Of a stretch of 27,039 nucleotides of DNA, positions 3,660-24,493 are shown in pieces. The stretch covers positions 1-27,039 of the forward strand of contig CAKUAM010000022.1 of NCBI GenBank assembly GCA_934636305.1, in the 5' to 3' direction. A program made the translations under genes and the position numbers. Within the stretch, counting starts at the first letter, position 1. Each line of letters begins with the position of its first letter. The notes beneath the pieces were generated by a model. That model searched no databases. It was not told the origin of the DNA and saw only the letters and a list, made by a program, of their open reading frames with translations. The DNA comes from an uncultured Oscillospiraceae bacterium (GTDB lineage: Bacteria; Bacillota; Clostridia; Oscillospirales; Oscillospiraceae).

Positions 3660-3660
3660 C

Positions 3661-7016: not shown

Positions 7017-7160
7017 AATTGAGCCCTCGTTTTGGAATTACCACTTGTTTCTCGCGGTAAAATACAGTAAAATAGGTTGGTCTGCCGGATCCCGGCACGC
7101 AACATATTATACCTGATACGCAAAAGCAAATCAACAGCAAAACTCTCAGGAGGTATCACA

Positions 7161-9210: not shown

Positions 9211-9596
9211 ATACGCCGATTGTACTTGCCATTCATTTCCCTGCGAAAAAGCTTGCCAAGCTGCGCATGGCTGCCATGCGTCTTGGTGCAAAGGTGCGCG
9301 TGGTGGAAAAGTGGGAGTATTTGTCTCCTGTCGGCTCGCTGACCGGCGATCTTGGCAGCTTTGAAAGCTTTTATGACGGTGCGGATTTTTCCGGCGAAAT
9401 GCTTGTCTTTGCGCATTTCGCGGACGAGCACCTGCAGCTGTTTCTGCGGGCTATACGCGCCGCAGCGCTGCCGCCGGTAGCGCTGAAGGCTGTACTGACA
9501 GGCTCAAATATGGGATGGAATGTGCTGGAGCTGCATGATGAGCTTCTGAAGGAGCATACCGCCATGCACGAGGGTACAAGCATTCATAAAGAATAA
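9207..9596 (+). CDS. DUF3783-containing small protein
   Basis: A 129-residue soluble protein. The C-terminal half, MLVFAHFADEHLQLFLRAIR followed by LPPVALKAVLTGSNMGWNVLELHDELLKEH, has the pattern of DUF3783: a short hydrophobic strand, then a helix, then an LKA-V-T-N-W motif. The N-terminal half (HFPAKKLAKLRMAAMRLGAKVRVV) looks like a paired alpha/beta half. No catalytic motif is visible. It starts within the stop of the polymerase gene (ATGA overlap) and ends the polysaccharide operon before the terminator at 9666. The function is unknown. Confidence 0.7.
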   Translation: MNTPIVLAIHFPAKKLAKLRMAAMRLGAKVRVVEKWEYLSPVGSLTGDLGSFESFYDGADFSGEMLVFAHFADEHLQLFLRAIRAAALPPVALKAVLTGSNMGWNVLELHDELLKEHTAMHEGTSIHKE

Positions 9597-9665
9597 TATT
9601 TGCTCGGAGACAGAATAGCGTTAATTTTTTTTGAAAAATTCCATTTGATAAATATCAACAGTTTA

Positions 9666-9695
9666 ACCGCCCCGGGGCAAATGCTCCGGGGCGGT
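9666..9695. terminator. GC-rich terminator between converging operons
   Basis: ACCGCCCCGG (9666-9675) pairs with CCGGGGCGGT (9686-9695) around a 10-base loop that can add a GC pair. TCTTGGTTGTTTG follows on the plus strand and AA(A/T)-rich sequence on the other side. It lies between the 3' ends of the polysaccharide operon and the M56-M23 gene and could serve both. Confidence 0.8.
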
Positions 9696-9721
9696 CTTGG
9701 TTGTTTGTGTAGATTCTAAGC

Positions 9722-11272
9722 TCAGCTGGCAAGCGTCTGCATGGGATCCACGTATTGCCCATCAACAAGCACATCCAGATGCAGATGCGGCCCGACTGCC
9801 CAGCCGGAAGCACCGGTAAGCCCGATCACCTGCCCCTGCTGCACAATCTCCCCTTCTGCGGCAAGACACTGCTGCAAATGACAATAGCTGGTCTGCACGC
9901 CGTTTTCGTGCAAAATCGTGACCATATACCCGTAGGCCACATCATACGTGCTGACTGTTACCGTCCCGGCTGCCACCGCCAGCACAGCACTTCCTTCCTC
10001 TGCCGCAAGATCTACGCCGCGGTGGAATGCCGTCTTGGTCTGTCCATTTTTCGTGGCTATGGGCACCTCGCGCTCCCCATAGCCATCTGTCACGGGAGCG
10101 TCAGCATCTTCCAGCGGGAACACATATGCTGCCGTCTGTCCGGCTGCATCCATGTCCTCGGCATCGGATCTTGCTGCATCTTCGGGCGAGGTGTCCGGTT
10201 CCTCCAGTGCCTGCGGCGTCTGCAGCTCCTCGATTGGCTCGATTGGCGCCGTCTGCGGAATCTCCAGCAAAATTGCCGGCGATTCCTGCTGTAAATCAGC
10301 GTCTGCCCGTCGGCTGTAATTCCCATTCGGGACGGCCTGTGTTGCAAATGCCGTCACAAGCGCAGCGGCAGTGGAAATTGCCGCAATTGTCAGATAAACC
10401 GGTATCTTCTTTGCTTTCATAATTGCACGGATCCTTTCCTCCGCCGCCGGTCTGCCAAACCCGCCGCACAGCGGGCTCACCCTCGCCTGCTGTGCCGCAG
10501 CCGCCAGGAGTGCCGCGGCATAGCCTCTGCGCTGCGCATAGCCCAGACGCCGCAGCACCTGTTCATCGCAGGCAAGCTCCATGTCGCGCCCGGCCAATAT
10601 CATCATGGCCCAGCAAAGTGGGTTCCACCAATACAGGCACAGACACACACTCAGAAGCGCCTTCCGCAGGCAGTCGCCGCGGCGGATATGTACAAGCTCA
10701 TGTGTCAGAATATACAATTGTGCTTCTTCCCCGCCTGGAAACATCTCCGGCAGCAGCACTACCGGACGGAAAATCCCATAGGTCAGCGGCGCACGCGCAT
10801 CCCGGGTATACGCAATGCGAGGGACACGAAGAAGCCCGAATTTCTTCCGCAGCTGCGCCGCGTCCAGCTCAACTGCGGGCGCCGCACTGGAAAACCGGCG
10901 CACCATTCGAAGATACCCGATGAGGATATACACCGCAAGCAGCAGCGTCCCGGCTGCCCAGATCCAGGCCAGAACAGGAATCCGGTGCGCAGTCGGCTGT
11001 GCCGCTGCAGCGGCGGTCGCCGACTGAACGGCGGGAAAAATCGTCAGCTTCTGCGCAGCAGCTGGCATCTCCGCCGAAGCCGAAGGCCGGAACAGGTTCC
11101 AGATGCTCACCGGCGACGGCAGTGCCACCGGCAGCAGAAGCCGCACCGCAGCCAGACACCACAGCGCTGGAAACAGGTGCCTGGGCAGATAGCGCCCAGC
11201 AGTCAGCCGCAGCAGCAAAATCCCGACAAGCAGGCAGCTGCCCCCTGTTACCGCGTATTGGACCCCGATCAT
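9722..11272 (-). CDS. BlaR1-like M56 metalloprotease fused to an M23 (LytM) endopeptidase
   Basis: A 516-residue protein. The N-terminal part has several membrane helices (two near the start, one near 100-120, one near 205-225, one near 285-305). An M56 peptidase domain has the zinc motif HELVH near residue 191 and a following MELACDEQVL glutamate helix near 232. After the last helix comes a Pro/Glu-rich linker (about 315-380). The C-terminus is an M23 domain with HRGVD near 416, YCHLQ and HLHLD near 495, so all expected zinc ligands are present. M56 proteins sense wall damage and trigger cleavage of BlaI. The usual BlaR1 penicillin-binding C-domain is replaced here by a wall endopeptidase. 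The start overlaps the blaI stop by 4 bp. The M23 part is predicted to be outside the membrane. Confidence 0.9.
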   Translation of the reverse strand: MIGVQYAVTGGSCLLVGILLLRLTAGRYLPRHLFPALWCLAAVRLLLPVALPSPVSIWNLFRPSASAEMPAAAQKLTIFPAVQSATAAAAAQPTAHRIPVLAWIWAAGTLLLAVYILIGYLRMVRRFSSAAPAVELDAAQLRKKFGLLRVPRIAYTRDARAPLTYGIFRPVVLLPEMFPGGEEAQLYILTHELVHIRRGDCLRKALLSVCLCLYWWNPLCWAMMILAGRDMELACDEQVLRRLGYAQRRGYAAALLAAAAQQARVSPLCGGFGRPAAEERIRAIMKAKKIPVYLTIAAISTAAALVTAFATQAVPNGNYSRRADADLQQESPAILLEIPQTAPIEPIEELQTPQALEEPDTSPEDAARSDAEDMDAAGQTAAYVFPLEDADAPVTDGYGEREVPIATKNGQTKTAFHRGVDLAAEEGSAVLAVAAGTVTVSTYDVAYGYMVTILHENGVQTSYCHLQQCLAAEGEIVQQGQVIGLTGASGWAVGPHLHLDVLVDGQYVDPMQTLAS

Positions 11273-11625
11273 GTCTCCTGCTCCTCCACAAGTGCGCGCA
11301 GCCGTTCCAGCTCTGTCCTGGAGAGCTTCCGGCCCCGCAGCAAAGACGCCATCAGGAGCTCCGCCGAACCGCCAAAGAATTTATCGACCAGCGTGTCCGC
11401 CTGCTCCTGCTGCGCCTGTTCTCTTGTGATGCATGCATGGCAGCAGAAGCCCGGATCCCGCCGCTCGATTGCCCCCTTTTCTACACACTTTTTAATGACC
11501 GTGTAGGTGGTGTTCTTGTTCCAGCCGGCAAGCTCTGTCAGCTGGAGCGACAGCTCCTTTGCTGTGCAGTCTCCCCTGTCCCACAGGACCTCCATCACTC
11601 TCCACTCGGAATCAAACAGCTTCAT
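11269..11625 (-). CDS. BlaI/MecI/CopY-family repressor
   Basis: A 118-residue repressor. The winged helix covers about residues 1-75 with the family pattern LFDSEWRVMEVLWDRGDCTA, then LQLTELAGWNKNTTYTVIKK and a wing ending near GAIERRD. The C-terminal helices (about 80-118) give dimerisation. Such repressors dissociate or are cut when the partner M56 protein is activated. The next gene, overlapping by 4 bp, encodes that partner. GAAAGGAG (11633-11640) precedes the ATG at 11625. Two dyads directly upstream are the likely autoregulatory operators. Two adjacent cysteines in CCHAC are notable and could bind metal or sense redox, though this is speculative. Confidence 0.92.
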   Translation of the reverse strand: MKLFDSEWRVMEVLWDRGDCTAKELSLQLTELAGWNKNTTYTVIKKCVEKGAIERRDPGFCCHACITREQAQQEQADTLVDKFFGGSAELLMASLLRGRKLSRTELERLRALVEEQET

Positions 11626-11775: not shown

Positions 11776-12471
11776 ATGCTCTCAGCTGCAGTATGGCTGG
11801 TACTGAGCAGTATGCTCACATCGCTTCGTATCTCCGGCGGCGGTTCCTTCCCGAAGCCGCTCTCCGCGGAGGAGGAGCGTATGTATCTACAGCGGAGCGC
11901 CGCGGGTGATCTTGAGGCGCGCAACATCCTGATTGAACGCAATCTGCGCCTGGTCGCACACATCATGAAAAAATACTATACACAGTCCGCCGATCAGGAG
12001 GACCTTATTTCCATCGGCACTATCGGGCTTATCAAGGGCATCTCGACCTTCGACGCAAGCAAGGGCGCACGTCTTGCAACCTACGCTGCCAGATGTGTAG
12101 AGAATGAAATCCTGATGTACTTCCGCTCTCTGCGGAAAAGTGCTGGGGATGTCTCGCTCTCAGACTGCATCGAAACCGGCAAGGACGGCAACGCACTCTC
12201 CCTCATGGATGTCCTCTGCTCCGACGAGGATCTGTTTGAGGATCTCAGCACAAGGCAAACCTATAAACGGCTCTATGAGGTCATGGATGAGGTTCTGACC
12301 GACCGGGAACAGATGGTTATCCGGATGCGCTATGGGCTTGGCGGCTGCGCGCCGCTGACGCAGCGCGAGATTGCCGCAAAATGCGATATCAGCCGCTCCT
12401 ATGTCTCACGGATCGAAAAAAAGGCGCTCGCCGCCCTGCAGACCGCCCTGCAGGATTATAAAACGGAGTAG
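11776..12471 (+). CDS. sigK: Sporulation sigma factor SigK (pro-form, uninterrupted)
   Basis: A 231-residue sigma-70 family factor. The hydrophobic N-terminal leader (about residues 1-25, MLSAAVWLVLSSMLTSL) matches the inhibitory pro-sequence of pro-SigK, which is normally removed by the SpoIVFB membrane protease. Region 2 contains ARNILIERNLRLVAHIMKKY and DLISIGTIGLIKGISTFDAS, the latter almost identical to known SigK. The segment ATYAARCVENEILMYFRSLRK is the -10 recognition part. Region 4 ends TQREIAAKCDISRSYVSRIEKKAL. SigK drives late mother-cell genes for coat and spore maturation. The gene is continuous, with no skin-type insertion. The start at 11776 has GGAGGTG at spacing 7. Confidence 0.95.
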   Translation: MLSAAVWLVLSSMLTSLRISGGGSFPKPLSAEEERMYLQRSAAGDLEARNILIERNLRLVAHIMKKYYTQSADQEDLISIGTIGLIKGISTFDASKGARLATYAARCVENEILMYFRSLRKSAGDVSLSDCIETGKDGNALSLMDVLCSDEDLFEDLSTRQTYKRLYEVMDEVLTDREQMVIRMRYGLGGCAPLTQREIAAKCDISRSYVSRIEKKALAALQTALQDYKTE

Positions 12472-12595: not shown

Positions 12596-12636
12596 AACAA
12601 CGGCAGAGCTTTCTATGGAAAGCTCTGCCGTTGTTT
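12596..12636. terminator. Terminator shared by sigK and the lysR gene
   Basis: An 18-bp perfect stem (AACAACGGCAGAGCTTTC, 12596-12613, with its complement at 12618-12635) has a TATG loop and flanking A and T runs on both sides. The minus-strand LysR stop codon sits at 12635-12637, touching the stem. It lies about 125 bp past sigK. The bases between hold no other feature I can identify. Confidence 0.9.
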
Positions 12637-13576
12637 ATTGTTCCTCAATCTCCTTCAGCTCCGTCTTATGGAACCACGCGTATAAGTGATGCAGAAACTG
12701 TACCTCAGTTGGCGTCAGCGGATCGCCCCGCCGCTTGATCCAGATCAGCTCTGACTGCGCATCACTCGACTCTGTAACCGGAATGACGCGGATCCGCTTA
12801 TCGCGGAAACAGCCGATAGCCCACTTCGCCACATACAAAATTGCCTCCGACTCCAGCAGGAATTTCTCACACGCGTTGACTGAATTGAAAAAAATCACCT
12901 TATTCATATTGAAATGGTTATCCCGGTTGTCAACAAACAGATCCTGCGTCGCCGCCTCCTCCATATCCAGCACAATCTGCGGGCAGCGCTCCACCTCGGA
13001 AAACAGAAGCGACCGGCGGTGGTAAAACGGCGATGCCGGCCCCACACAGACATAGACGCCGGCATGCTCAATCGAATGGATGCTCAGCCGCTTGCTTTCG
13101 GTATTCCACAGGTATGTCCGGGCATCCGTGCTGCTGCGGACAAGAAGCCCGATATCCGCCCGTCCGTCGAGCACCATGCGTGTGACGCTGCTGCGGTCTG
13201 TCTCCACAAGGTTATAGTGGATGTTCCGGTCCTGGTTCTGCAGATACGTCCGCAGAATCAGCTCGTGAATGAAATCCAGCTGCTGTGACGCCACAAACAG
13301 CCTGGAACGGCCTGGCCCACTGCGTCCGGAGAAGTTGCTTTCCAGCGCGTTGGCTGCCGTCAGAACACTGCGCGCATAGTGCAGAAAGCTTTTCCCCTCA
13401 ATCGTCAGCTCCACCCCGCGCGGCTTACGCAGCAGAAGCTGGACATTAAATTCCTCCTCCAGGCTGCTGATAGCCTTTGTTAAACTTGGCTGACTGATAT
13501 ACAGCTCCTCCGCCGCCTTGGAAATCGATCCGCATTCAGCAATTTTCAACAAATATTCCAGCTGCTTGATTTTCAT
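12635..13576 (-). CDS. LysR-family regulator divergent from the transketolase operon
   Basis: A 313-residue LysR-type regulator. The helix-turn-helix is at about residues 1-60 (MKIKQLEYLLKIAECGSISK, then ISQPSLTKAISSLEEEF), followed by the linker and a substrate-binding domain from about 90. An upstream in-frame ATG at 13648 would add 24 residues. The ATG at 13576 is chosen because LysR proteins begin here and GGAGGGG lies upstream. It is transcribed away from the SDR/transketolase/ADH/GPH operon across a 281-bp gap, the classical arrangement for a regulator of that operon. Its inducer is probably the transported sugar or a metabolite of it, by inference. Confidence 0.9.
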   Translation of the reverse strand: MKIKQLEYLLKIAECGSISKAAEELYISQPSLTKAISSLEEEFNVQLLLRKPRGVELTIEGKSFLHYARSVLTAANALESNFSGRSGPGRSRLFVASQQLDFIHELILRTYLQNQDRNIHYNLVETDRSSVTRMVLDGRADIGLLVRSSTDARTYLWNTESKRLSIHSIEHAGVYVCVGPASPFYHRRSLLFSEVERCPQIVLDMEEAATQDLFVDNRDNHFNMNKVIFFNSVNACEKFLLESEAILYVAKWAIGCFRDKRIRVIPVTESSDAQSELIWIKRRGDPLTPTEVQFLHHLYAWFHKTELKEIEEQ

Positions 13577-13857
13577 CGCCTGATTCCCCTCCCCACACGC
13601 AGAATTTTTGTTTACTTTTACTATATCTGCAGGATCATTTTTTGTCAATCAGCAAAATCATTCCTTTTCGTTATACCCAGGTGATGCAATATGCGTATTT
13701 GTCAGCAGCTTGTATTGGTGATAAACTGCAATTGCAAGCATGAATCGAAGCATAATTTGTGTAATACGCGCAAAATTAACGGTTCATTTGCGGAGCATTG
13801 CAAGCGAAGATATTAAGAAAACGAAATAGCAGAACAACGAATAGGAGGAAGATCTGA
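13577..13857. promoter_or_regulatory. Divergent control region between lysR and the SDR operon
   Basis: An AT-rich stretch of 281 bp, below the GC of its surroundings. It contains a perfect 10-bp palindrome TGCAATTGCA (13727-13736) and an inverted pair GCGTATT (13693-13699) / AATACGC (13763-13769), 63 bp apart. These are possible LysR sites, though either could be chance. AGGAGG at 13843-13848 serves the SDR start. I find no convincing -35/-10 pair, which is common for activator-dependent promoters. Confidence 0.5.
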
Positions 13858-14703
13858 ATGGCAGAATTCTATGACATTTATCCCAAGGATCGCTGGAAAG
13901 ACCCCTCGTACCACCTGATGGACAAATTCTCGCTCAAGGGCAAAAAGGGGTTCGTCACGGGCGGCGGCGGCGGTATTGGCCGCAATGTTGCAGCTGCATG
14001 GGCAGAGGCTGGTGCAGATGTCGCACTGGTGGATATTCCTTCTTCGAAGGAACGTCTGGAGCCTTTGTGCAAGGAAATGTCTGAGCGCTACGGCGTCAAG
14101 ATCATTCCGCTCTACTGCGACGTGTCTGACAAGGCACAGGTCGACAAGCTGGAGGAGGATCTTGTCCGGGAGCTTGGCACCGTGGACATCGCGCACATCA
14201 ATGCGGGTGTTTGCCTGCCGGGGGACGATGTGGACGTTTCGTACGAAACCTGGAAAAAGGTCATTGACATCGACCTGAACGGTGCATTTCTGACTGCACA
14301 GGTCGCGCAGCACATTATGCGCAGGCATAACCACGGCGGCTCGATCATCATGACCTCCTCCCTGTCCGGCTACAATGCAAATTTCATCGGCGGCGGCCCA
14401 TCGCCCGTCTGCACCTATGGTACGGCGAAAGCAGGCATCTCGCAGATGGCACGCTATATGGCTGCTGGCCTCGCCCCCTACGGGATCCGCGTGAACACCA
14501 TCTCCCCGGGTTATATCTGGTCTGGTATTCATGAGGGTGTGATGGACAAGACCGGGCACGACATGTGCCTCGAGGTTGTTCCCATCAAGCGCTTCGGTAC
14601 AACCGATGAGCTGCAGGGCGCGCTTTTGTTCCTCGCAAGCGACGCATCGTCTTACGTGACCGGCATCAATATCCCCATTGACGGCGGTTATTCCATTTAC
14701 TAA
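13858..14703 (+). CDS. SDR-family sugar/polyol oxidoreductase
   Basis: A 281-residue classical short-chain dehydrogenase. The dinucleotide motif is TGGGGGIG (about residues 39-46). An aspartate ends the second strand (ALVDIP), favouring NAD(H). Then come INAGV, the catalytic Ser in MTSSLSGYNA, and YGTAK (about 187-191). The C-terminus ends VTGINIPIDGGYSIY, typical of sorbose/sorbitol/mannitol-type reductases. The N-terminal 25 residues (MAEFYDIYPKDRW...) precede the fold and are longer than in the smallest SDRs. It is first in the operon. Likely substrates are polyols or ketoses, but which one is not visible. An RBS AGGAGG lies 9 bp before the ATG. Confidence 0.85.
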   Translation: MAEFYDIYPKDRWKDPSYHLMDKFSLKGKKGFVTGGGGGIGRNVAAAWAEAGADVALVDIPSSKERLEPLCKEMSERYGVKIIPLYCDVSDKAQVDKLEEDLVRELGTVDIAHINAGVCLPGDDVDVSYETWKKVIDIDLNGAFLTAQVAQHIMRRHNHGGSIIMTSSLSGYNANFIGGGPSPVCTYGTAKAGISQMARYMAAGLAPYGIRVNTISPGYIWSGIHEGVMDKTGHDMCLEVVPIKRFGTTDELQGALLFLASDASSYVTGINIPIDGGYSIY

Positions 14704-14728
14704 TCAAAAGAAAGGATGACTTTCAGAC

Positions 14729-15616
14729 ATGGCCAAAGTTTACATTGAAAATGTGCGTGATCTGGTCGTAAAGGCCGGCGAGATCCGCGAAAAGCTGGCG
14801 CTGGCGACACGCCGCATCGGTAACGTCCATATCGGCGGCCCGATGTCCGCAGCAGACGTCACCACAGCGATCTACTACAAATACATGGGGTTCGATCCCG
14901 ACAATCTCGACGATCCCAACCGCGACCGCTTCATCCTCAGCAAGGGTCACAACGGCATCCTGCTGTTCACGATCTTCTGCGACATGGGCATGTATGACTG
15001 GGATCTGCTGCTCGACACCTACAACACCATCGGTCATCCCTTCGGCGCGCATCCGAACCACAAGCGTGTCAAGGGCATCGAGGTTTCCACCGGCTCCCTG
15101 GGCCATGGCCTGTCCTGGTGCTGCGGCATCGGCCACGCCAACCGCGGCCGTGGGATCAAGTCCCGCATCTGGACGCTGCTGGGCGACGGCGAGATGGAGG
15201 AAGGCTCCAACTGGGAAGCAATCCTCTACGCAGCCTCTCACAAGCTCGACAACATCGTTGCAGTCGTCGACTTCAACCACGCTTCTGCAGCGTATGAGAC
15301 GAACCAGAACCAGCGGTGGGGCGACAAGGGCGGTCCCGAGGGCATGGCAGACTGCTTCCGCGCATTCGGCTGGAACGCAACGGTTATCGACGGCACGAAC
15401 ATGACCGAGATCGACAAGACTCTCGCTGCCCTGCCCGAGGTCACGCTGGACGGCAAGCCCAACGCAATCATCTGCAGCACCACAAAGGGTCAGGGCGTCG
15501 GCTTCATGATGGAGCGTCCGTGCGCATGGCACATCGGCGGCTTCGATGATGACAAGCTGGCTGAGGCCGAAAAGGACATCAAGGAATATACTGCGAAAAA
15601 ACTGGCGGAGGTGTAA
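14729..15616 (+). CDS. Transketolase N-terminal (ThDP-binding) subunit
   Basis: A 295-residue protein corresponding to the N-terminal half of transketolase. The thiamine-diphosphate/Mg motif GDGEMEEGSNWEA begins near residue 152 and runs to DFN near 175. HPNHKRVKGIEVSTGSLGHG carries the conserved histidine of the active site. FILSKGHNGILL is the usual early motif. The gene is intact and about the length of split-transketolase N-subunits. It pairs with the next gene, with which it shares a 2-bp gap. The sequence resembles other split transketolases, including those of sulfo-transketolase and apulose pathways. The C-subunit gives more hints about substrate. Confidence 0.9.
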   Translation: MAKVYIENVRDLVVKAGEIREKLALATRRIGNVHIGGPMSAADVTTAIYYKYMGFDPDNLDDPNRDRFILSKGHNGILLFTIFCDMGMYDWDLLLDTYNTIGHPFGAHPNHKRVKGIEVSTGSLGHGLSWCCGIGHANRGRGIKSRIWTLLGDGEMEEGSNWEAILYAASHKLDNIVAVVDFNHASAAYETNQNQRWGDKGGPEGMADCFRAFGWNATVIDGTNMTEIDKTLAALPEVTLDGKPNAIICSTTKGQGVGFMMERPCAWHIGGFDDDKLAEAEKDIKEYTAKKLAEV

Positions 15617-15618
15617 CA

Positions 15619-16590
15619 ATGGGTGGTTTTACATTTTGCTGCGGTGATATGGGCCCCGTGATGGAGGCCAAGGGCACCGTTACGAACGAAATTCTGGAAA
15701 TGATCGAGGACGATCCCAGAGTATGCTATGTCAACGCTGACGGCACCGGCCGCGGCGGCCGCGTACAGCAGGCCCAGCTCCGGTATCCGGATCGGATCCT
15801 CGACGTTGGTATTCAGGAAATGAACATGGTCACGATCGCTGCCGGTCTCGCCAAGGAAGGCTATCTTCCCTATGTGCAGACGTTTGGTCCGTTCCTGTGC
15901 GTGCGCGCACTCGACCAGATTCACAACGACGTTGCCTACAACGATTATCCCGTGCGCCTCATCGGCACGCACGCCGGCCTTTCTTCCGGCTATGGCCCGA
16001 CGCACAACACGATCATCGAGTTCGGCGTCATGAATTCCCTGCCAAACATGACCATGGTTGCTCCGTGCGACGCAGAACAGTGCAAGAAGCTGCTGCGCAA
16101 GTCTCTCAACTATCCGAAGCCCATCTACATCCGTATTCCCCGCGGCGAGGAGCCCCTGGTTTACGCGAAGGATCATGAGTATGATTACGAGATCGGCAAG
16201 GCCATCGTCATTCAGGAAGGCACGGATCTCAACATCATTGCTACCGGCATGGGCGTTTACAATGCAGTCCAGGCTGCCCGCCAGCTCGAAGAAAAGGGCT
16301 TCAGCGTCGGCGTCATCGACATGCACACCATCAAGCCCATCGACAAAGAAGCCATTGTCCACGCTGCCAAGCTCAGCGGCAACATCATCACCGTAGAGGA
16401 TCACAACATCCTCGGCGGTCTCGGCAGCATCGTTGCCGATACCCTGATGGAGGCCGGTGTTTTTGCCAAGCTCAAGAAGATCGGTGTCCCCGATAAGTTC
16501 ATCGAGTTTGGTTATCCTGAGGAGATCTACCCCTACCTCGGCATGGATGCAAACGGCATCGTGAAAACTGCACTGGAAACCCTGAGATAA
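15619..16590 (+). CDS. Transketolase C-terminal subunit with altered phosphate-site residues
   Basis: A 323-residue protein with the pyrimidine-binding and C-terminal domains of transketolase. The catalytic glutamate is E67 in DVGIQEMNM. GYGPTHNTIIE (residues 124-134) holds the histidine equivalent to yeast His469, and YIRIPRGEE keeps the arginine equivalent to Arg528. Two other phosphate contacts are changed: N23 stands where canonical enzymes have Arg359 (ATR becomes VTN), and ADGTGRGG (40-47) lacks the Ser386 serine. The usual GEDG before the histidine is SGYG. The start has GGAGGTG inside the upstream stop region. The changes suggest an acceptor or donor without phosphate, but my alignment is by eye. 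Confidence 0.88.
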   Translation: MGGFTFCCGDMGPVMEAKGTVTNEILEMIEDDPRVCYVNADGTGRGGRVQQAQLRYPDRILDVGIQEMNMVTIAAGLAKEGYLPYVQTFGPFLCVRALDQIHNDVAYNDYPVRLIGTHAGLSSGYGPTHNTIIEFGVMNSLPNMTMVAPCDAEQCKKLLRKSLNYPKPIYIRIPRGEEPLVYAKDHEYDYEIGKAIVIQEGTDLNIIATGMGVYNAVQAARQLEEKGFSVGVIDMHTIKPIDKEAIVHAAKLSGNIITVEDHNILGGLGSIVADTLMEAGVFAKLKKIGVPDKFIEFGYPEEIYPYLGMDANGIVKTALETLR

Positions 16591-16597
16591 CCCGGCG

Positions 16598-16624
16598 CCG
16601 GAGCGGTGCACCGCACCGCTCCGG
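16598..16624 (+). other. Intra-operon hairpin between transketolase and ADH genes
   Basis: A 12-bp perfect stem, CCGGAGCGGTGC (16598-16609) with its complement (16613-16624), and a 3-base loop, followed by TTTATAAACGG. It is too weak in T-run for full termination. A partial terminator or an mRNA-stability element is plausible. Confidence 0.7.
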
Positions 16625-16657
16625 TTTATAAACGGAAAGAGAAAGGAATGATGCCAC

Positions 16658-17710
16658 ATGAAACAGCTGTTCATTACGTCTGTCCGGGATTTTGAAAAGA
16701 ACACCATGGGCACCGTAGAAATGCGGGAAGTCCCGATGCCCGAACCGGCAGACGACGAGATCCGAATCAAGATCATTTATTCCTCGATCTGCGGATCTGA
16801 CACGCACACCCTGACCGGCCATCTCGGAGAATTCGAGGAAGGTACCAAGGCAATGCTCCCCATGACCTTTGGTCATGAGCTGTCCGGTATCATCGACAAG
16901 GCCGGCCCCAAGGCCGAGGCACTCGGCTATCACGCCGGTGACAAGGTCATCGCTAACTACGCAAAATATTGCTACGCTTGCGAAAACTGCCGCAGCGGGC
17001 ATGAAAACCTGTGCTCCCATGTGCAGTTCTGCATGAACGGCTTCGCCGAGTATGCAGTCTACCATGTCACGCAGGTGCATAAGCTCCCTGAAAATTACGA
17101 TCTGGAGACTGCCGCCCTCATTGAGCCGCTGACCATCGCGCTGGCTGCTGCCGAGCAGGCAAACATCTCCTACGGCAAATCCGTCGCCATCATGGGCGCA
17201 GGCGGCATCGGCCTGATGCTCGTGCAGCTGGCTCGCCTGGCTGGCGCATCGTGCGTCACCGTCTTTGACCTGGTTGAAGAAAAGTGTGAGCTCGCCAAGC
17301 AGCTCGGCGCAGACTATGCCTTTGACCCGCGCAAGGAAGGCGCCATCGACGAGGCCATCAAGGCAGCCGGCGGCCTGTATGACTGCGTGCTCGAGGGCAC
17401 GGGTGTCACCTCTTCCGCTGAGACGGCGCTCAAGCTTCTCGCCCGCAACGGCGACGGCGTGTACTTCGCCATGTACGGCAAGGATCCGTACCTGCAGGTC
17501 AATCTGCATACCGATTTCTATTGGGATCAGAAGCATCTGCATGGTGTCATCATGGGCGCTGGCCTGTTCCCGAAGGCCATCAGGCTGGCCCCGCGTGTCA
17601 ACCTCAAGGCGCTTATCCAGAAGGAACATCCGCTGAGCCGCTATCAGGACGCATTTGCTGACCTCTATACCAAAAAATATGCCAAGATCGTCATCAAGAT
17701 GGACGAATAA
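16658..17710 (+). CDS. Zinc-dependent alcohol/polyol dehydrogenase (MDR superfamily)
   Basis: A 350-residue medium-chain dehydrogenase. The catalytic zinc ligands are Cys in SSICGSDTHT and His-Glu in FGHELSG. The structural zinc loop is YCYACENCRSGHENLC with four cysteines in the C-x2-C-x2-C-x7-C pattern. The dinucleotide motif is GAGGIG, followed by VTVFDL with an aspartate favouring NAD. Relatives act on sorbitol, threonine, butanediol and similar compounds. The gene follows the transketolase pair and precedes the transporter. With the SDR it gives the operon two oxidoreductases, which could do successive oxidation and reduction steps. The RBS is GAAAGGA about 10 bp before the ATG. Confidence 0.88.
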   Translation: MKQLFITSVRDFEKNTMGTVEMREVPMPEPADDEIRIKIIYSSICGSDTHTLTGHLGEFEEGTKAMLPMTFGHELSGIIDKAGPKAEALGYHAGDKVIANYAKYCYACENCRSGHENLCSHVQFCMNGFAEYAVYHVTQVHKLPENYDLETAALIEPLTIALAAAEQANISYGKSVAIMGAGGIGLMLVQLARLAGASCVTVFDLVEEKCELAKQLGADYAFDPRKEGAIDEAIKAAGGLYDCVLEGTGVTSSAETALKLLARNGDGVYFAMYGKDPYLQVNLHTDFYWDQKHLHGVIMGAGLFPKAIRLAPRVNLKALIQKEHPLSRYQDAFADLYTKKYAKIVIKMDE

Positions 17711-17755
17711 CACTACATCCCGGTTCCCATAAAAAAGAGAATGAAAGGGGGCTGT

Positions 17756-17863
17756 ATGGCGTATTTCATTGCGCGATACAGACAAATACTATGTCAAAAG
17801 AAGCTGTTACTACCACTGGGAAATCCGAAGATAAGACTTATTATCACGGCGGTAAGGCCGTAG
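17756..17863 (+). other. Possible 35-codon ORF overlapping the transporter start
   Basis: A strong Shine-Dalgarno-like AAAGGGGG (17744-17751) lies just before an ATG at 17756. That ATG opens a 35-codon frame ending at a TAG (17861-17863), out of frame with the transporter, whose ATG at 17791 has no nearby Shine-Dalgarno. The ORF uses codons that are rare in the neighbours (ATA, AGA, CTA, TTA, AGG), so its product is doubtful. Translational coupling through it would explain how the transporter is started. Confidence 0.35.
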
Positions 17864-19221
17864 CCAGAAAATTCGCATTCGCCTCCGGCGAGCTTGTTTA
17901 CAACCTGCCGTGGATGCTGGTCAGCTCCTATCTAGCCTTCTTCATGACAGACGTTGCACTCATCCCGGCCGGCGCTGTCTCGATTCTGTTCCTGATCTGC
18001 CGTATCTGGGACGCCATCAATGACCCGATGATCGGCTCGTTTGCTGACCGTACCAACACCAAGATGGGCCGCTATCGTCCGTGGATGCTCGGCGGTGCCA
18101 TCGGCCTCATTCCGCTGGTTATCCTGCTGTTCTGGGCACATCCGGACTGGAGCGTCGGCGCCCGTACCGCCTATGGCTGCATCTTCTACTTCATCACCGT
18201 TGTCGCAGCAACCGCATGGAACATTCCCTTCTCCGCACTCAATGGCGTTATTTCCCCGTATCCGCGTGAGCGCGCCTCTTTCTCCAGCTACCGCATTTTC
18301 ATTTCCTCGATCGCCTGCTCCGTTGCAACGGCTATCTTCATCCCGCTGGTCACCAAGTTCTCCGGCACCGAAGGCAACGCTGTTCGCGGCTATCTGCTGG
18401 CAGCGCTCGTCGTCTGCTGCATGGCGATTCCGTTCGTGTTCACCTCGATCCTCGGCACCAAGGAAGTCGTCAAGGCGCCTCCTGCTCAGAAGCAGAAGTT
18501 CCACGCCAAAGAGATGGCTGCCTGCTTTACGAAGAATCCTCCCCTGCTCATCGTGTGCTTTGCATTCCTGGTCTATGGCTTCCTGAACTACGGCCGTATG
18601 ACTGTCGGTATGTACTACTTCACCTATGTCTGGGGCGATGTGAGCCTGTTCACGCTGTATGCGACCGTCAACGGCCTCATCTGCGCAGTGGCAGCCTTCT
18701 TCAGCGCATCTCTCGTCAAGCTTTGCCGCGGCAAGCGCGGCGCGCTGCTGCTGTCCTACGGCCTGAGCTTCGTTCTGAACATCATCCTGTTCTTCCTCTC
18801 CCCGGCTAACGCCTCCTCCACGCTTGTGCTCGTGCTGTTGTTCGGCACCGGCATCTTCAACGGCTTCTGCACCGCTCTGCTGTACGGTATGATCGGCGAC
18901 ACGGTTGAATATGGCCAGTGGAAGACCGGCGTGCGCGCAGATGGCCTCTGCTCCTCCGGCACCAGCTTCGCGCTGAAGCTTGGCGGCGCAATCGCTCCGA
19001 CCATGCTGCTCGCTATGCTCGCAGCCAACGGCTATGTGGAAGGCTCTGCTACGCAGACTGCCGGCGCACTGTCCACCATGAACATCGTTATGAACCTGAT
19101 CCCGGCAATTCTTGCAGTCATCAGCTTCGTGCTGTTCCTGTTCTACAAGCTCGATGCCAAGATGCACGAGCAGATCATCCAGGATCTGAAGGATCGTGGT
19201 CAATACGTTGTAGAAGAATGA
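17791..19221 (+). CDS. GPH-family sugar:cation symporter
   Basis: A 476-residue 12-helix transporter of the glycoside-pentoside-hexuronide:cation symporter family (major facilitator superfamily). Signatures are CRIWDAINDPMIGSFADRTN then KMGRYRPWML (about residues 70-105), and MIGDTVEYGQWKTGVRADGL then CSSGTSFALKLGG near 365-400. It is the last gene of the operon, before the terminator at 19245. It imports sugar or polyol glycosides without phosphorylating them, which fits the absence of a PTS and of a kinase here. The start is uncertain: the ATG at 17791 is the only sensible in-frame start, yet it lacks a nearby ribosome-binding site. The substrate is unknown. Confidence 0.9.
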   Translation: MSKEAVTTTGKSEDKTYYHGGKAVARKFAFASGELVYNLPWMLVSSYLAFFMTDVALIPAGAVSILFLICRIWDAINDPMIGSFADRTNTKMGRYRPWMLGGAIGLIPLVILLFWAHPDWSVGARTAYGCIFYFITVVAATAWNIPFSALNGVISPYPRERASFSSYRIFISSIACSVATAIFIPLVTKFSGTEGNAVRGYLLAALVVCCMAIPFVFTSILGTKEVVKAPPAQKQKFHAKEMAACFTKNPPLLIVCFAFLVYGFLNYGRMTVGMYYFTYVWGDVSLFTLYATVNGLICAVAAFFSASLVKLCRGKRGALLLSYGLSFVLNIILFFLSPANASSTLVLVLLFGTGIFNGFCTALLYGMIGDTVEYGQWKTGVRADGLCSSGTSFALKLGGAIAPTMLLAMLAANGYVEGSATQTAGALSTMNIVMNLIPAILAVISFVLFLFYKLDAKMHEQIIQDLKDRGQYVVEE

Positions 19222-19244
19222 TTTTCATTCTTTCCTCTTTCCAG

Positions 19245-20237: not shown

Positions 20238-21032
20238 TTATGAAAGAAGCATCTTATCATTTGCCTCATCGCTGCAGCTGGCACGCGAGAACATCGCCAG
20301 CAGATCCGGCACCGTGAGCTTTTTCTTCTCCTCACCGGAAATATCCACAACAACTTGTCCGGCATCCATCATAATAAGCCGGTTGCCGTGCGAAATTGCA
20401 TCCTTCATGTTGTGCGTAATCATCAGCGTCGTAAGATTGTGCTCCTGCACAATTCTGTCAGACAGTGCAAGCACCTTTGCCGCTGTACGCGGGTCAAGCG
20501 CCGCCGTATGCTCGTCAAGAAGCAGCAGCTTTGGCTTCTGCAGCGCCGCCATCAGCAGCGTCAGCGCCTGCCGCTGGCCGCCGGAGAGCAGGCCAACCTT
20601 CGCGCTCATGCGATCCTCCAGGCCGAGATCCAGCGAACGCAGCTTCTCCTGATAGCTCTCGCGCTCTGCCTTTGTGATGCCCCATTTGAGCCCGCGCCGC
20701 TGGCCGCGCCGCGCCGCAAGCGCCAGATTTTCCTCGATCTGCATGGTGGGCGCAGTGCCCATCATGGGGTCCTGGAACACACGGCCAAGAAACGCTGCCC
20801 GCTTGTACTCCGGGAGGCTTGTAATATCCGTACCGTCAATGATGATCGATCCGCTGTCAATCTGGAAAGAACCGGCGATTGCGTTGAGCATCGTGGACTT
20901 ACCCGCGCCGTTGCCGCCGATGACAGTCACAAAATCGCCGTCATGGAGCGTCAGATTGAGGCCGTTCAGCGCGGTCTTTGCGTTGACCGTACCGGGATTG
21001 AAGGTCTTGCATACGTTTTTCAGTTCAAGCAT
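20238..21032 (-). CDS. ABC transporter ATP-binding protein (TrpZ-like)
   Basis: A 264-residue ATPase. Walker A is GGNGAGKST (residues 39-47), the signature is LLSGGQRQAL, Walker B is LLLLDEHTAALD, and the switch histidine is in TLMITHNMKDA. The ATG at 21032 is used rather than an upstream one at 21110, because the conserved fold begins MLELKNVCKTF and the 26 extra residues are Arg-rich with no similarity. The start overlaps the permease stop by 8 bp. It is last in the operon and powers the importer formed with the next two genes. This resembles the TrpXYZ-type importers described for aromatic amino acids, but specificity lies in the binding protein. Confidence 0.9.
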   Translation of the reverse strand: MLELKNVCKTFNPGTVNAKTALNGLNLTLHDGDFVTVIGGNGAGKSTMLNAIAGSFQIDSGSIIIDGTDITSLPEYKRAAFLGRVFQDPMMGTAPTMQIEENLALAARRGQRRGLKWGITKAERESYQEKLRSLDLGLEDRMSAKVGLLSGGQRQALTLLMAALQKPKLLLLDEHTAALDPRTAAKVLALSDRIVQEHNLTTLMITHNMKDAISHGNRLIMMDAGQVVVDISGEEKKKLTVPDLLAMFSRASCSDEANDKMLLS

Positions 21033-21954
21033 TGCGTGCGCCCTCCTTCTGCGATTTGCCGCGGAACATCTTGCCCTTCCAATACGGGATGGCGAGGAAC
21101 AGCGCCACAATCAGCGCCGTGATGAGCTTGAGGTCATTCGTGTTCAGACCAAGCTGCAGCACGATCTGCAGGACAAAATAGTAGATGACTGCGCCGATGG
21201 AAACTGCCAGCAGCTTGAGGCCGAAGTTCGTAAACAGCTTGCCAAAGATGACCTCGCCGATAATGACAGCGGCAAGGCCGATGACAATTGCGCCGCGGCC
21301 CATGTTGACATCCGAGGCACCCTGGAACTGCGCCAGCAGCGCGCCAGACAGCGCGACAAGACCATTGGAAAGCATCAGGCCAAACACCACGTTTGCGTTC
21401 GTGTTGATGCCCTGTGCGCGTGCCATGTTCTGATTGGCGCCGGTTGCACGGATGGCACAGCCTTGCTCTGTCCCGAAGAACCAGTACAGCGCGAAGATCA
21501 GCGCCGCCGTGAAGATAATCAGCAGCGGCAGCGGGTTCTGCAGCGAGAGCTCGCGCACATAGCGCTGCGAGACAAGCAGGTTATACTTATCCACACCGAC
21601 GGCCTGGTTGGCCTTGCTCGCCATGATGCGCAGATTGATAGAATACAGCGCCAGCTGCGTCAGAATGCCGGACAGGATTGCCGGGATTCCGCACTTCGTA
21701 TGGAACATGCCTGTCACAAAGCCAGCCAGCATACCGGCTGCAAACGCGCACACAAGCGCCAGCCACGGATTGAGGCCAGCGCGGATCAGCATAACCGCCA
21801 CAGCGCCGCCGGTCGCAAGCGAGCCATCGACGGTCAGATCTGCAACATCGAGGATTCGGTATGTGATATAGACGCCGATCGCCATCAGTCCCCAGATCAG
21901 CCCCTGCGCCGCAGCGCCGGGCAGAGAATTGAGCAGTGCAGAGAGAAAACTCAT
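21025..21954 (-). CDS. ABC transporter permease (TrpY-like)
   Basis: A 309-residue permease with about eight or nine hydrophobic segments. The opening SLPGAAAQGLIWGLMAIGVY and RILDVADLTVDGSLATGGAV are typical of the BPD_transp_2-type permeases that pair with ABC_sub_bind lipoproteins. GTEQGCAIRATGANQNMARA is the cytoplasmic loop that contacts the ATPase. A single permease gene suggests a homodimer. It follows the lipoprotein gene after a 143-bp gap that contains a strong hairpin. The RBS AAGGAGAAGG precedes the ATG. Confidence 0.9.
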   Translation of the reverse strand: MSFLSALLNSLPGAAAQGLIWGLMAIGVYITYRILDVADLTVDGSLATGGAVAVMLIRAGLNPWLALVCAFAAGMLAGFVTGMFHTKCGIPAILSGILTQLALYSINLRIMASKANQAVGVDKYNLLVSQRYVRELSLQNPLPLLIIFTAALIFALYWFFGTEQGCAIRATGANQNMARAQGINTNANVVFGLMLSNGLVALSGALLAQFQGASDVNMGRGAIVIGLAAVIIGEVIFGKLFTNFGLKLLAVSIGAVIYYFVLQIVLQLGLNTNDLKLITALIVALFLAIPYWKGKMFRGKSQKEGARNA

Positions 21955-22040
21955 AAATCCTTCTCCTTGTAGGCTTGCTCCTGCAATCGCGCGGCATCCG
22001 CCGCATATCGGCCGATGGCAGGTTCAAGCGTCGTAATATG

Positions 22041-22073
22041 ACCGGCCGTGGGGTGTTTTTCCCCATGGCCGGT
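22041..22073 (-). other. Intra-operon hairpin between binding-protein and permease genes
   Basis: ACCGGCCGTGGGG (22041-22053) pairs with CCCCATGGCCGGT (22061-22073) except at one position, with a TGTTTTT loop on the plus strand. No T-run follows on the transcribed strand. Such hairpins after a binding-protein gene usually protect its mRNA and lower expression of the permease, which is the likely role here. Confidence 0.7.
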
Positions 22074-22097
22074 GCGAAAAAGCAATATTTGATACAA

Positions 22098-23159
22098 TCA
22101 GCCTTCGATTGCCTCGTAGCCCTCCAGCGGAGTGATGCCAAGCTGTTCGCAGACGGAAGCGTTGTACTTCGGCGCTGCGTCGGTGTATTCAACCGGCATC
22201 TCGGAAATATCGGCTTCGCCCTTGAGGATCTTGGCTGCCATCTTGCCGGTGGTCACGCCAAGGTCATAGTAGCTGATGGACAGCGTTGCAACCCCGCAGC
22301 CTCTGCAGATGCCTTCCTCGCCGCAGATGGCGGGAATGCCTGCCGGGATCAGCACGTTTGCAATTGCCTCGGTGTTGGCAGCGGCGGTGTTATCGGTCGG
22401 AATATAGACAACGTCAACGCTGTCTGCAGCCTTCTGGGTAACAGAGGAAACGTCGTTGCTGTCGGTGAATGCAAACTCCTCGCAGGTGACGCCCTTGGCT
22501 TCCAGCGCCTTGCGGACCTCGTCGATCTGATAGCGGGAGTTCGGCTCTGCAGAGCAGAACAGCAGGCCGACCGTCTTGGTCTCCGGGAACCACTCCAGGA
22601 TCATGTCTGCCTGCGCCTGCAGGTCGGCAAGATCGGAGGTGCCGGAAACGTTGCCGCCGACAGTACCATTAAAATCATCAATGTCAAGCGCCACGCCATA
22701 GGCCGTGATGGAGGTGCCGAGGATGGGAATATCCGCCGTTGCGGAAACTGCAGCCGTCAGAGCCGGCGTTGCATTCGCCATAATGAGGTCAACACCCTTG
22801 GAAACAAAGCCGTTGACAATCGTGCCGCAGTTGACGGAGTCGCCGGAGGCGTTCTGCACGTCAACGGTGACTGCGTCGCCCAGTTCTTCCTTCAGCGCGT
22901 CCACGAAGCCCTGCGTGGCAGCGTCAAGTGCCTCGTGCTGCACCAGCTGGCAAACGCCGACAGTGTAGGTCTTGCCGGACTCATCAGCAGTTTCTGTTGT
23001 ATCCTCTGCCGGTGCGGCGGTGTCGTCTGCAGCTGCCGCGGTATCTGCGCGCTGCTCGGTGGTCGTGGAGGCTGTGTCAGCAGCCGGTGTGCTGCCTGCA
23101 CAGGCTGCAAGCGCCAAAACAAGCGCTGCAGCAAGAAGCATTGCAAGAATCTTTTTCAT
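22098..23159 (-). CDS. ABC transporter substrate-binding lipoprotein (TrpX-like)
   Basis: A 353-residue protein with a lipoprotein signal: basic N-terminus, hydrophobic core and lipobox LAAC with the acylated cysteine at residue 20. A low-complexity Ala/Thr/Asp linker follows (about 21-60), and then a two-lobe domain starting TYTVGVCQLVQHEALDAATQ, with VDVQNASGD, ADIPILGTSITAYGVAL and VVYIPTDNTA. This is the ABC_sub_bind family, of which TrpX is a member. The family binds aromatic amino acids or related compounds; the ligand here is not provable. A short ORF with its own promoter precedes it (23260-23376), with a hairpin between. The RBS AAAAGGAG lies before the ATG. Confidence 0.88.
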   Translation of the reverse strand: MKKILAMLLAAALVLALAACAGSTPAADTASTTTEQRADTAAAADDTAAPAEDTTETADESGKTYTVGVCQLVQHEALDAATQGFVDALKEELGDAVTVDVQNASGDSVNCGTIVNGFVSKGVDLIMANATPALTAAVSATADIPILGTSITAYGVALDIDDFNGTVGGNVSGTSDLADLQAQADMILEWFPETKTVGLLFCSAEPNSRYQIDEVRKALEAKGVTCEEFAFTDSNDVSSVTQKAADSVDVVYIPTDNTAAANTEAIANVLIPAGIPAICGEEGICRGCGVATLSISYYDLGVTTGKMAAKILKGEADISEMPVEYTDAAPKYNASVCEQLGITPLEGYEAIEG

Positions 23160-23203
23160 TATAGTCTCTCCTTTTCATTGTCTGTAAAGCTGAGTTATAT
23201 ACA

Positions 23204-23236
23204 AAGGAGGCTCTGCTGTCACAACAGAGCCTCCTT
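23204..23236 (-). terminator. Hairpin between the short ORF and the ABC operon (possible attenuator)
   Basis: AAGGAGGCTCTG (23204-23215) pairs perfectly with CAGAGCCTCCTT (23225-23236) around a 9-base loop. On the transcribed strand it is followed by TTTGTATATAAC, a weak U-run. It starts 23 bp after the short ORF stop and ends 44 bp before the lipoprotein ATG, where an attenuator or partial terminator would be expected. Confidence 0.65.
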
Positions 23237-23259
23237 CGGATACCGGTAGAATCCTACGA

Positions 23260-23376
23260 TCAGCAGCCAGCCGCCGGACGCTCGTTTGCACCAGAATACA
23301 GGCCCGCAAACTCGTTGCGAGCCTTCATAAAGTAGAAGCCCATCTTCATCGAATATGCAAAGCTCATGTGACGCAT
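23260..23376 (-). CDS. 38-residue aromatic-rich small ORF (leader-peptide candidate)
   Basis: It is too short for usual gene calling. It has a Shine-Dalgarno AAAGGAG with spacing of 6 to the ATG at 23376 and a strong promoter 50 bp upstream. The peptide begins MRHMSFAYSMKMGFYFMKAR and ends ERPAAGC. It contains five Met, four Phe and three Tyr, with a Phe-Tyr-Phe run at 14-16, and no Trp. It could be a leader peptide whose translation controls the hairpin at 23204, or a small protein in its own right. No antiterminator pairing is obvious by eye. I do not recognise it. An overlapping longer frame (23219-23530) starts upstream of the promoter-defined transcript and is less likely. Confidence 0.55.
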   Translation of the reverse strand: MRHMSFAYSMKMGFYFMKARNEFAGLYSGANERPAAGC

Positions 23377-23425
23377 GATAAGCTCCTTTCCGCTGCAGCC
23401 AGCTGATTTCTTTCTGATGTTCACT

Positions 23426-23454
23426 ACTATAAAGCTTTAAATGCGCAAAGTCAA
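23426..23454 (-). promoter_or_regulatory. Promoter of the short ORF and ABC operon
   Basis: On the minus strand TTGACT (23454-23449) is followed after exactly 17 bp by TATAGT (23431-23426). The start site is expected near 23419, giving a leader of about 43 bases before the short ORF. It is the only strong promoter I see between the LysR gene and the lipoprotein gene. Confidence 0.75.
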
Positions 23455-23514
23455 GTGTGAATTTGACAGTTTCTATGAGGTTCCATCTTTCCATTTTGTG
23501 CAAAAGCGGCAAAT

Positions 23515-23540
23515 CCCCGGCAGCACGCATGCTGCCGGGG
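23515..23540 (-). terminator. Hairpin at the end of the second lysR gene
   Basis: CCCCGGCAGCA (23515-23525) and its complement (23530-23540) form an 11-bp stem with a 4-base loop, 20 bp past the LysR stop. On the transcribed strand the following run is only ATTT, so termination strength is uncertain. Confidence 0.65.
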
Positions 23541-23560
23541 AAAAATCATGGAATTTTCGC

Positions 23561-24493
23561 TCAGACGTTGGAAAAATGATACGAATGGCCAAGATCATAC
23601 GTCATCTTATCGCTCTCAGAAATAAAGTCCATAAAGCGGTTTGCTGCCGAGGTCGGCGCAACATCGCGCAGCGTGCACATGCAGACCGAGCGAGGCGGGA
23701 TCTCAAAATCTGTCTTGATCGGTAAAATCACGCCGCGGCCAAGACCGGACTGGGAAAATTCCTCCGTCACGCACGCCACTCCGAGGCCGATCCGCGCCAG
23801 CGCAACGAGCAGATTGTGGGAGCCAAGCTCAATTTCCGGCTTAATGGTGACGCCGTTCTGCTGGAAATACTGCTCGACATACACGCGGGAGCTTGCCTTG
23901 CGTTCCAGCAGAATCAGCGGGAACGATGCAATCTCGTCAAGGGAATGCACATGATCGAAGTCGCAGTCATAGTTCGGCGCCGCGACGAAAATCTGATGCG
24001 TGTCAAAGCAGTGCCGCACACTGTAGGAATCCTTTTCCTTCGGCTCACTGGCAAACGCAATATCCACCTGCCCGGCGTGCAGATAATCGAGCACCATCTG
24101 GCTCGTGCCATTGAGAATGCGGATCTGGATCGCCGGATAATTCTGGTGGAACGCCTCCAGCCGGGACACCAGATACGTTTTGGTTACGGTGTCGCTCGCC
24201 CCGATAATCAACTCGCCCGTCAGCAGCTGCCGCGACTGAGCCAGCTTTTCCTCGCCGCACTGGATCAGCCCCAGGCCGTGCGAAACATAATCGAGCAGCA
24301 TTTTTCCCTCGCTTGTCAGCACCACGCCGCGCGTGCTTCTGGAAAACAGGCGCACCTGCAGCTGCTCCTCCAGCTGCTTAATCGACTGGCTCACGGCAGA
24401 TTGCGAAATATACAGATTCTGCGCCGCAGCGGAGATATTGCCCATCCGGGCGACCTCCTGAAAGACACGGTAAAGCTCCAGCTTGACAGCCAT
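23561..24493 (-). CDS. LysR-family regulator upstream of the ABC importer
   Basis: A 310-residue LysR regulator. The helix-turn-helix occupies residues 1-60 (LYRVFQEVARMGNISAAAQN, then YISQSAVSQSIKQLEEQL). The effector domain starts near 90 with LTGELIIGASDTVTKTYLV, and IRILNGTSQMVLDYLHAGQV and IGLGVACVTEEF are typical of CysB/CysL-like members. GGAGGC lies before the ATG at 24493. It is transcribed with the ABC operon but ends at its own hairpin, and it is divergent from the xpt-guaA unit. Which neighbour it controls is unknown; the ABC importer is more likely than the riboswitch-controlled purine genes. Confidence 0.9.
   Translation of the reverse strand: MAVKLELYRVFQEVARMGNISAAAQNLYISQSAVSQSIKQLEEQLQVRLFSRSTRGVVLTSEGKMLLDYVSHGLGLIQCGEEKLAQSRQLLTGELIIGASDTVTKTYLVSRLEAFHQNYPAIQIRILNGTSQMVLDYLHAGQVDIAFASEPKEKDSYSVRHCFDTHQIFVAAPNYDCDFDHVHSLDEIASFPLILLERKASSRVYVEQYFQQNGVTIKPEIELGSHNLLVALARIGLGVACVTEEFSQSGLGRGVILPIKTDFEIPPRSVCMCTLRDVAPTSAANRFMDFISESDKMTYDLGHSYHFSNV

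Follow-up and report, generated by a model that had tools for sequence, protein, structure and literature searches.

A probable steroid-17,20-desmolase operon of the mixed desEABCD type in an uncultured Oscillospiraceae bacterium

We analysed a 27,039-nucleotide stretch of DNA from an uncultured Oscillospiraceae bacterium (contig CAKUAM010000022.1 of assembly GCA_934636305.1; this whole stretch is called the window hereafter), and in particular five genes at positions 13858-19221 together with the divergent lysR gene located 5' of them. Judged by homology, the five genes most probably form a glucocorticoid side-chain cleavage (steroid-17,20-desmolase) operon of the mixed desEABCD type, a reading to which we assign a probability of about 0.9. 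The operon is of an already described kind and not a new sugar pathway; for the most part, the result consists in recognising known biology correctly. Identity to described operons and position in a phylogenetic tree overturned the initial annotation, made from the DNA letters alone, which had proposed an undescribed sugar or polyol route. Statements taken from the literature refer to excerpts of the papers cited.

Gene content and identity of the operon

According to the list of open reading frames (ORFs), all five genes are intact and lie on one strand behind the LysR gene, as initially annotated. desE (13858-14703, + strand) encodes a short-chain dehydrogenase/reductase (SDR; Pfam and NCBIfam SDR families) of 281 amino acids, by homology a 20-beta-hydroxysteroid dehydrogenase (HSDH). 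The next two genes encode the two parts of a split transketolase, by homology the steroid-17,20-desmolase: desA (14729-15616, +; 295 amino acids; PF00456) the N part, i.e. the thiamine diphosphate (ThDP)-binding subunit, and desB (15619-16590, +; 323 amino acids; PF02779 and PF02780) the C-terminal subunit. desC (16658-17710, +) encodes a zinc alcohol dehydrogenase (ADH) of 350 amino acids, by homology a 20-alpha-HSDH, and desD (17791-19221, +) a GPH/MFS_2 symporter of 476 amino acids (TIGR00792, 333 bits for a cut-off of 231), a putative steroid importer. The LysR-type regulator (PF00126 and PF03466) has 313 amino acids when read from the likely ATG start, which gives 12635-13576 on the minus strand, the mechanically defined ORF starting at 13648. 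The gene-level features of a des operon are present by homology, i.e. adjacent desA and desB, the 20-HSDH genes desE and desC, desD, and an adjacent lysR.

Solved structures gave the first lead. The zinc ADH matched PDB 4oh1 over its whole length (552 bits; 235 of 350 residues identical, i.e. 67 %, with no gaps), and the SDR matched 6m9u (376 bits) and 6ow4 (374 bits). In PMC13348027, 4OH1 is used as DesC of Clostridium scindens ATCC 35704, a 20-alpha-HSDH, and 6OW4 as DesE of Bifidobacterium adolescentis, a 20-beta-HSDH. The window DesE shares 163 of 278 aligned residues (58.6 %) with 6m9u, also from B. adolescentis, and is about as distant from it as is DesE of Agathobaculum desmolans (57.8 %; PMC13348027), which supports the identification. 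For DesA and DesB, the best solved match was another two-subunit enzyme, the split transketolase of Carboxydothermus hydrogenoformans (PDB 6yaj and 6yak), which scored 203.8 and 164.9 bits and is thus far more distant from the window proteins than their Des relatives. A literature search on 'split transketolase' found no paper.

In order to compare gene neighbourhoods, we used the transketolase C part to scan one genome per species, which retrieved at least 586 stretches, at least 576 of them encoding a relative; the best 80 were used (L001-L080). The best locus listed, on a contig of a clostridial metagenome-assembled genome (MAG; L001), carries the same five genes and lysR in the same order as the window, with identities of 69 % for LysR, 89 % for DesE, 92 % for DesA, 90 % for DesB, 80 % for DesC and 83 % for DesD. 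The second-best locus among the matches listed is that of A. desmolans ATCC 43058 (also placed in Butyricicoccus; L002), for which desmolase and 20-beta-HSDH activities have been reported and from which DesE was purified as a 20-beta-HSDH (PMC5408610). Its desEAB operon resembles the window in having a divergent lysR followed by desE, desA and desB, with 52, 87, 90 and 88 % identity respectively, and both share an AGGAGGA-type ribosome site before desE. It differs in lacking desC and in keeping only the last 105 codons of desD. The DSYK active-site tetrad described in DesE of desmolase strains (PMC5408610) aligns with D139, S168, Y187 and K191 of the window protein. It was rejected as a unique marker, the Asp being found in L001, L002 and L009 but also in the distant L016.

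The window can further be compared with desABCD of C. scindens ATCC 35704 (PMC3735941), in which a split transketolase, a zinc ADH acting as 20-alpha-HSDH and a Na+/melibiose-type symporter are found in the order seen here; in the excerpts cited, this operon is described without the desE that the window has. Forty-four operons have been counted with SSTDhunter, i.e. 15 desEAB, 18 desABCD, 2 mixed desEABCD and 9 truncated (PMC12876203). The mixed layout, seldom reported, brings together the two known types of cortisol-reducing enzyme. Its name gives the same gene content and order as the window, and our comparison with it is by this count (2 of 44) only; the window is a further member of the type or, possibly, one of the two already counted. 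A full-text search of open-licence PMC papers for 'steroid-17' together with 'desEABCD' returned PMC12876203 only.

Several points weigh against this identification. DesC and its characterised relative share only 67 % identity, and no C. scindens DesA or DesB was identified among the matches, so that comparison with an enzyme known to act relies on A. desmolans together with identities from the literature (81-82 % for DesA among C. scindens, A. desmolans and C. cadaveris; PMC5408610). Neither desE nor desC was found nearby in seven of the 12 members of the clade described below (L003-L007, L010 and L011), the L003 contig ending in desA. Finally, activity, induction and transport are predicted for the window from homology alone.

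Related loci, operon history and mobility

Joined DesA and DesB sequences of the window and of 79 loci (all but L079, which lacks a DesA match) were placed in a phylogenetic tree, using a quick method with Shimodaira-Hasegawa-like approximate likelihood ratio test (SH-aLRT) supports and no bootstrap. The window groups with L001 and A. desmolans (SH-aLRT 100) within a clade of 12 rows (SH-aLRT 100), whose members are MAGs and genomes of quite different taxa. Both desE and desC occur in two rows (the window and L001), desE alone in two (L002 and L009) and desC alone in one (L008), which makes desAB the constant part of the clade and the HSDH genes its variable partners. One member, L011 (an Eggerthellales MAG), sits on a long branch and has Leu at the position of DesB Tyr125.

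A route in which the dehydrogenases make a free ketose that the transketolase then splits is highly improbable on these grounds. Such a route would suit the transporter, whose GPH family takes its name from sugars, but the five Des proteins are 80-92 % identical to those of L001, DesE, DesA and DesB are 87-90 % identical to those of a known cortisol-cleaving species, and the tree leaves the distant operons out of the 12-row clade. The initial annotation rightly saw no kinase, isomerase or aldolase: no match to sugar kinase, sugar isomerase or aldolase families was obtained among the 16 window proteins scanned, i.e. LysR, the five operon proteins and 10 others out of a larger number of window ORFs. 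The sulfo-transketolase and apulose-4-phosphate pathways, to which it had compared the genes, were said there to have a kinase or isomerase, unlike these 16 proteins. Likewise, 20 ORFs from the surroundings of desAB in L003-L011, 16 of them with a Pfam match, yielded no kinase or isomerase. A better place than the window to seek a free-ketose route is the set L014-L036, which falls outside the desmolase clade and includes Clostridium magnum, C. carboxidivorans and C. ljungdahlii (L015, L016 and L017). In 16 of these 23 loci, an SDR and a zinc ADH accompany both transketolase parts, with DesB identities of 44-48 %, and seven of the 16 also have a GPH-type permease.

The breadth of taxa in the clade could also mean that the true substrate of the desmolase is another steroid or steroid-like ketol, cortisol being a side substrate only. 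L008 (positions 3373-10746, a Pseudomonadales MAG) fits this idea, as its desAB (60 and 66 % identity) and desC (73 %) adjoin genes for a cytochrome P450 and a TonB-dependent receptor; steroid side chains might be cleaved by this locus outside the gut. The closest relatives that have been characterised are nevertheless cortisol enzymes, and the substrates given in the literature excerpts are 17,21-dihydroxy-20-ketosteroids or their C20 alcohols, which leaves this alternative very little room.

The A. desmolans locus informs on the history of the operon. No DesC match was found in it, and its 105-codon desD end (L002:7048-7362) starts 75 bases after the desB stop, in an uninterrupted frame, and corresponds to DesD residues 372-476 with 73 % identity. 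At the DNA level (blastn), likeness between the window and this locus breaks off where desB ends (16590) and is seen again over the last 319 bases of desD (18904-19222). The simplest reading of this one genome is that desEAB of A. desmolans would be a deletion derivative of a desEABCD ancestor, with loss of desC and most of desD. Alternatively, the mixed operon may have arisen by fusion, a partial copy being passed to A. desmolans.

Mobility of the set is suggested by its surroundings. Between the window and L001, blastn matches (E 1e-4) cover 12693-13587 (lysR) and 13857-19192 (desE to desD) and none lie beyond, L001 extending about 3 kb past lysR and only about 0.4 kb past desD; at the same threshold, flanking DNA showed no likeness between the window and A. 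desmolans. GuaA of the window shares 75 % identity with its counterpart in A. desmolans and 67 % with that of the L001 genome (residues 1-317 only). The closest GuaA in a set of 295 genomes from the order to which A. desmolans belongs reached 78 %, and we therefore assign the host to no genus. Identities of 80-92 % for Des proteins against 67-75 % for this one housekeeping gene fit horizontal transfer, which was also inferred for the operon in PMC12876203. Between lysR and the first des gene, the candidate operator or promoter element ATTTGT-N15-GTGWTA (13697-13723, +; 161 to 135 bases upstream of desE) spans 27 bases in each of the window, L001, L002 and L005, the four loci from whose alignment it was picked, with no shuffle control. 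Conserved upstream elements have been reported in the corresponding region (PMC5408610).

Active site of DesAB and proposed pathway

In split transketolases, the active site lies between the subunits. We compared 17 positions of E. coli TktA, taken to belong to its active site, with DesA and DesB in a MAFFT alignment. Thirteen are unchanged in the window (His26, His66, His100, Asp155, Glu160, Asn185, His261, Glu411, Phe434, Phe437, His461, His473 and Arg520) and four are changed: Ile187 to DesA Ala185, Arg358 to DesB Lys18, Ser385 to DesB Gly46 and Asp469 to DesB Tyr125. The catalytic Glu411 aligns with DesB Glu67, in agreement with the initial annotation, which had also rightly retained one His and one Arg of the phosphate site (His118 and Arg175) and noted the missing equivalent of Ser386, where the window has Gly46. 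Its placement of Asn23 at the Arg359 position was a misalignment, since Lys18 stands there against TktA and also pairs with an Arg of split transketolase 6yaj in a separate phmmer alignment. This site therefore retains its positive charge, and the pocket has lost less than initially supposed.

Taking the canonical phosphate-binding set to be Arg358, Ser385, His461 and Arg520 (E. coli numbering), the window has Lys, Gly, His and Arg, i.e. two of four kept, one conservative change and one loss. Across the 12 clade rows, the Arg358 site is Lys in 10 and Arg in two, the Ser385 site Gly in six, Ser in three, Val in two and Thr in one, and the Asp469 site Tyr in 11 and Leu in one. Among 120 close DesB relatives listed of 6467 matches, all at least 75 % identical, these sites hold Lys (120), then Gly (82), Val (33), Ala (4) or a gap (1), then Tyr (119) or Asp (1). 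In the 69 loci L012-L080, Arg occupies the first site in 42 and Ser the second in 44, and the third is Gly (24), Tyr (19), Asp (16), Ala (7), Met (2) or Ser (1), all Tyr rows lying outside L012-L036. Tyr125 was discarded as a desmolase-only marker, given Tyr in those 19 more distant split transketolases and Leu in clade row L011. The notion of a stripped phosphate pocket was weakened, as the window loses Ser only, Lys (for Arg), His and Arg remaining, and three of the 12 clade rows keep Ser. The DesB pocket is compatible with a sugar-phosphate acceptor.

Ser385, Asp469 and Arg520 are treated as active-site residues in E. coli transketolase (PMC3657141, PMC10787763). There, the D469Y variant showed 8-fold activity with propionaldehyde and a reversed enantioselectivity (PMC3657141), aromatic aldehydes were admitted after substitutions at S385 and D469, and D469T created a hydrophobic surface (PMC10787763). 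Read beside these results, the changes at Ser385 and Asp469 place the departure of DesB from sugar transketolases at sites known to favour non-polar substrates. This likeness is positional only, the engineered variants having bulky Tyr or Phe at Ser385 whereas DesB proteins have small residues.

In C. scindens, cortisol induces desABCD about 1,000-fold, DesC is a 20-alpha-HSDH and desD encodes a putative cortisol transporter resembling symporters; for desAB, removal of the side chain by transketolation was proposed, with possible entry of the two carbons into the pentose phosphate pathway (PMC3735941). DesAB of this species is described as a heterotetramer recognising both cortisol and 11-deoxycortisol (PMC7996314). 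By analogy, the window LysR protein would probably control induction and DesD would probably import the steroid. Using NAD(H), DesE and DesC would act reversibly on cortisol at its C20 ketone, forming 20-beta- and 20-alpha-dihydrocortisol, respectively, as their relatives do. The ThDP-dependent DesAB would attack the C20 ketone of the 17-alpha,21-dihydroxy-20-keto side chain and cut C17-C20, releasing a C19 17-ketosteroid (11-beta-hydroxyandrostenedione from cortisol), and the two-carbon ketol would stay on ThDP until an acceptor takes over. Side-chain cleavage has been reported for relatives, and the papers cited offer the transketolation mechanism and the acceptor as hypotheses; for the window, activities, transport and acceptor are extrapolated from homologues.

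No kinase would be needed in this scheme, since the ketol that serves the transketolase as donor, the cortisol C17-C20-C21 side chain, is unphosphorylated. The initial expectation of an unphosphorylated ketose thus stands as regards the ketol used by the known enzymes and fails as regards a sugar. A dehydrogenase could likewise, in principle, supply the ketone, by oxidising 20-dihydrocortisol to cortisol. The idea that the second dehydrogenase reduces a shortened aldehyde found no support, both enzymes having characterised relatives that act on the C20 of cortisol and the cleavage product being a 17-ketone.

The two HSDHs could conversely be the main function, as an epimerase pair turning 20-alpha- into 20-beta-dihydrocortisol through cortisol, with cleavage by DesAB minor. 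Both genes are intact in one operon, as in 2 of the 44 operons counted in PMC12876203, and for the A. desmolans enzyme the equilibrium lies strongly toward the 20-beta alcohol (about 98 %; PMC5408610). Since desAB sits between the HSDH genes with its compared catalytic positions kept, and is constant in the clade where HSDH genes come and go, we regard this as very unlikely.

Taking the desmolase operon as the preferred identification, we tentatively propose, at somewhat less than even odds, that desEABCD is ancestral in this gut desmolase branch, that A. desmolans desEAB arose by deletion, that the mixed form recovers both dihydrocortisols as substrates, and that DesB is steroid-adapted partly via Ser385 to Gly, Val or Ala and Asp469 to Tyr. 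Neither the desD remnant nor the DesB channel comparison was met in a partial search of the desmolase literature, no fuller search having been made for either.

Neighbouring genes and significance

Elsewhere in the window, a BlaI-like repressor gene (PF03965) adjoins one for an M56 peptidase protein that also bears an M23 peptidase domain (9722-11625, -), and a sigma-70-family factor with regions 2 and 4 is encoded just past lysR (11776-12471, +). On the other side lies an ABC importer set (20238-24493, -) comprising a PF04392 binding protein, a PF02653 permease and a PF00005 ATPase; another LysR gene lies upstream of the set.

Through side-chain cleavage, bacteria make androgens from cortisol, and prostate cancer cells can be stimulated to grow by the product that prednisone yields on cleavage (PMC12876203). 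The finding of a complete mixed operon in a host that shares only 75 % GuaA identity with A. desmolans adds to the case for the set moving between gut genomes, and it provides a natural system for comparing 20-alpha- and 20-beta-HSDH. Through the two DesB channel residues, simple mutations could probe how a transketolase recognises steroids, and the desD remnant would give the evolution of these operons a direction.

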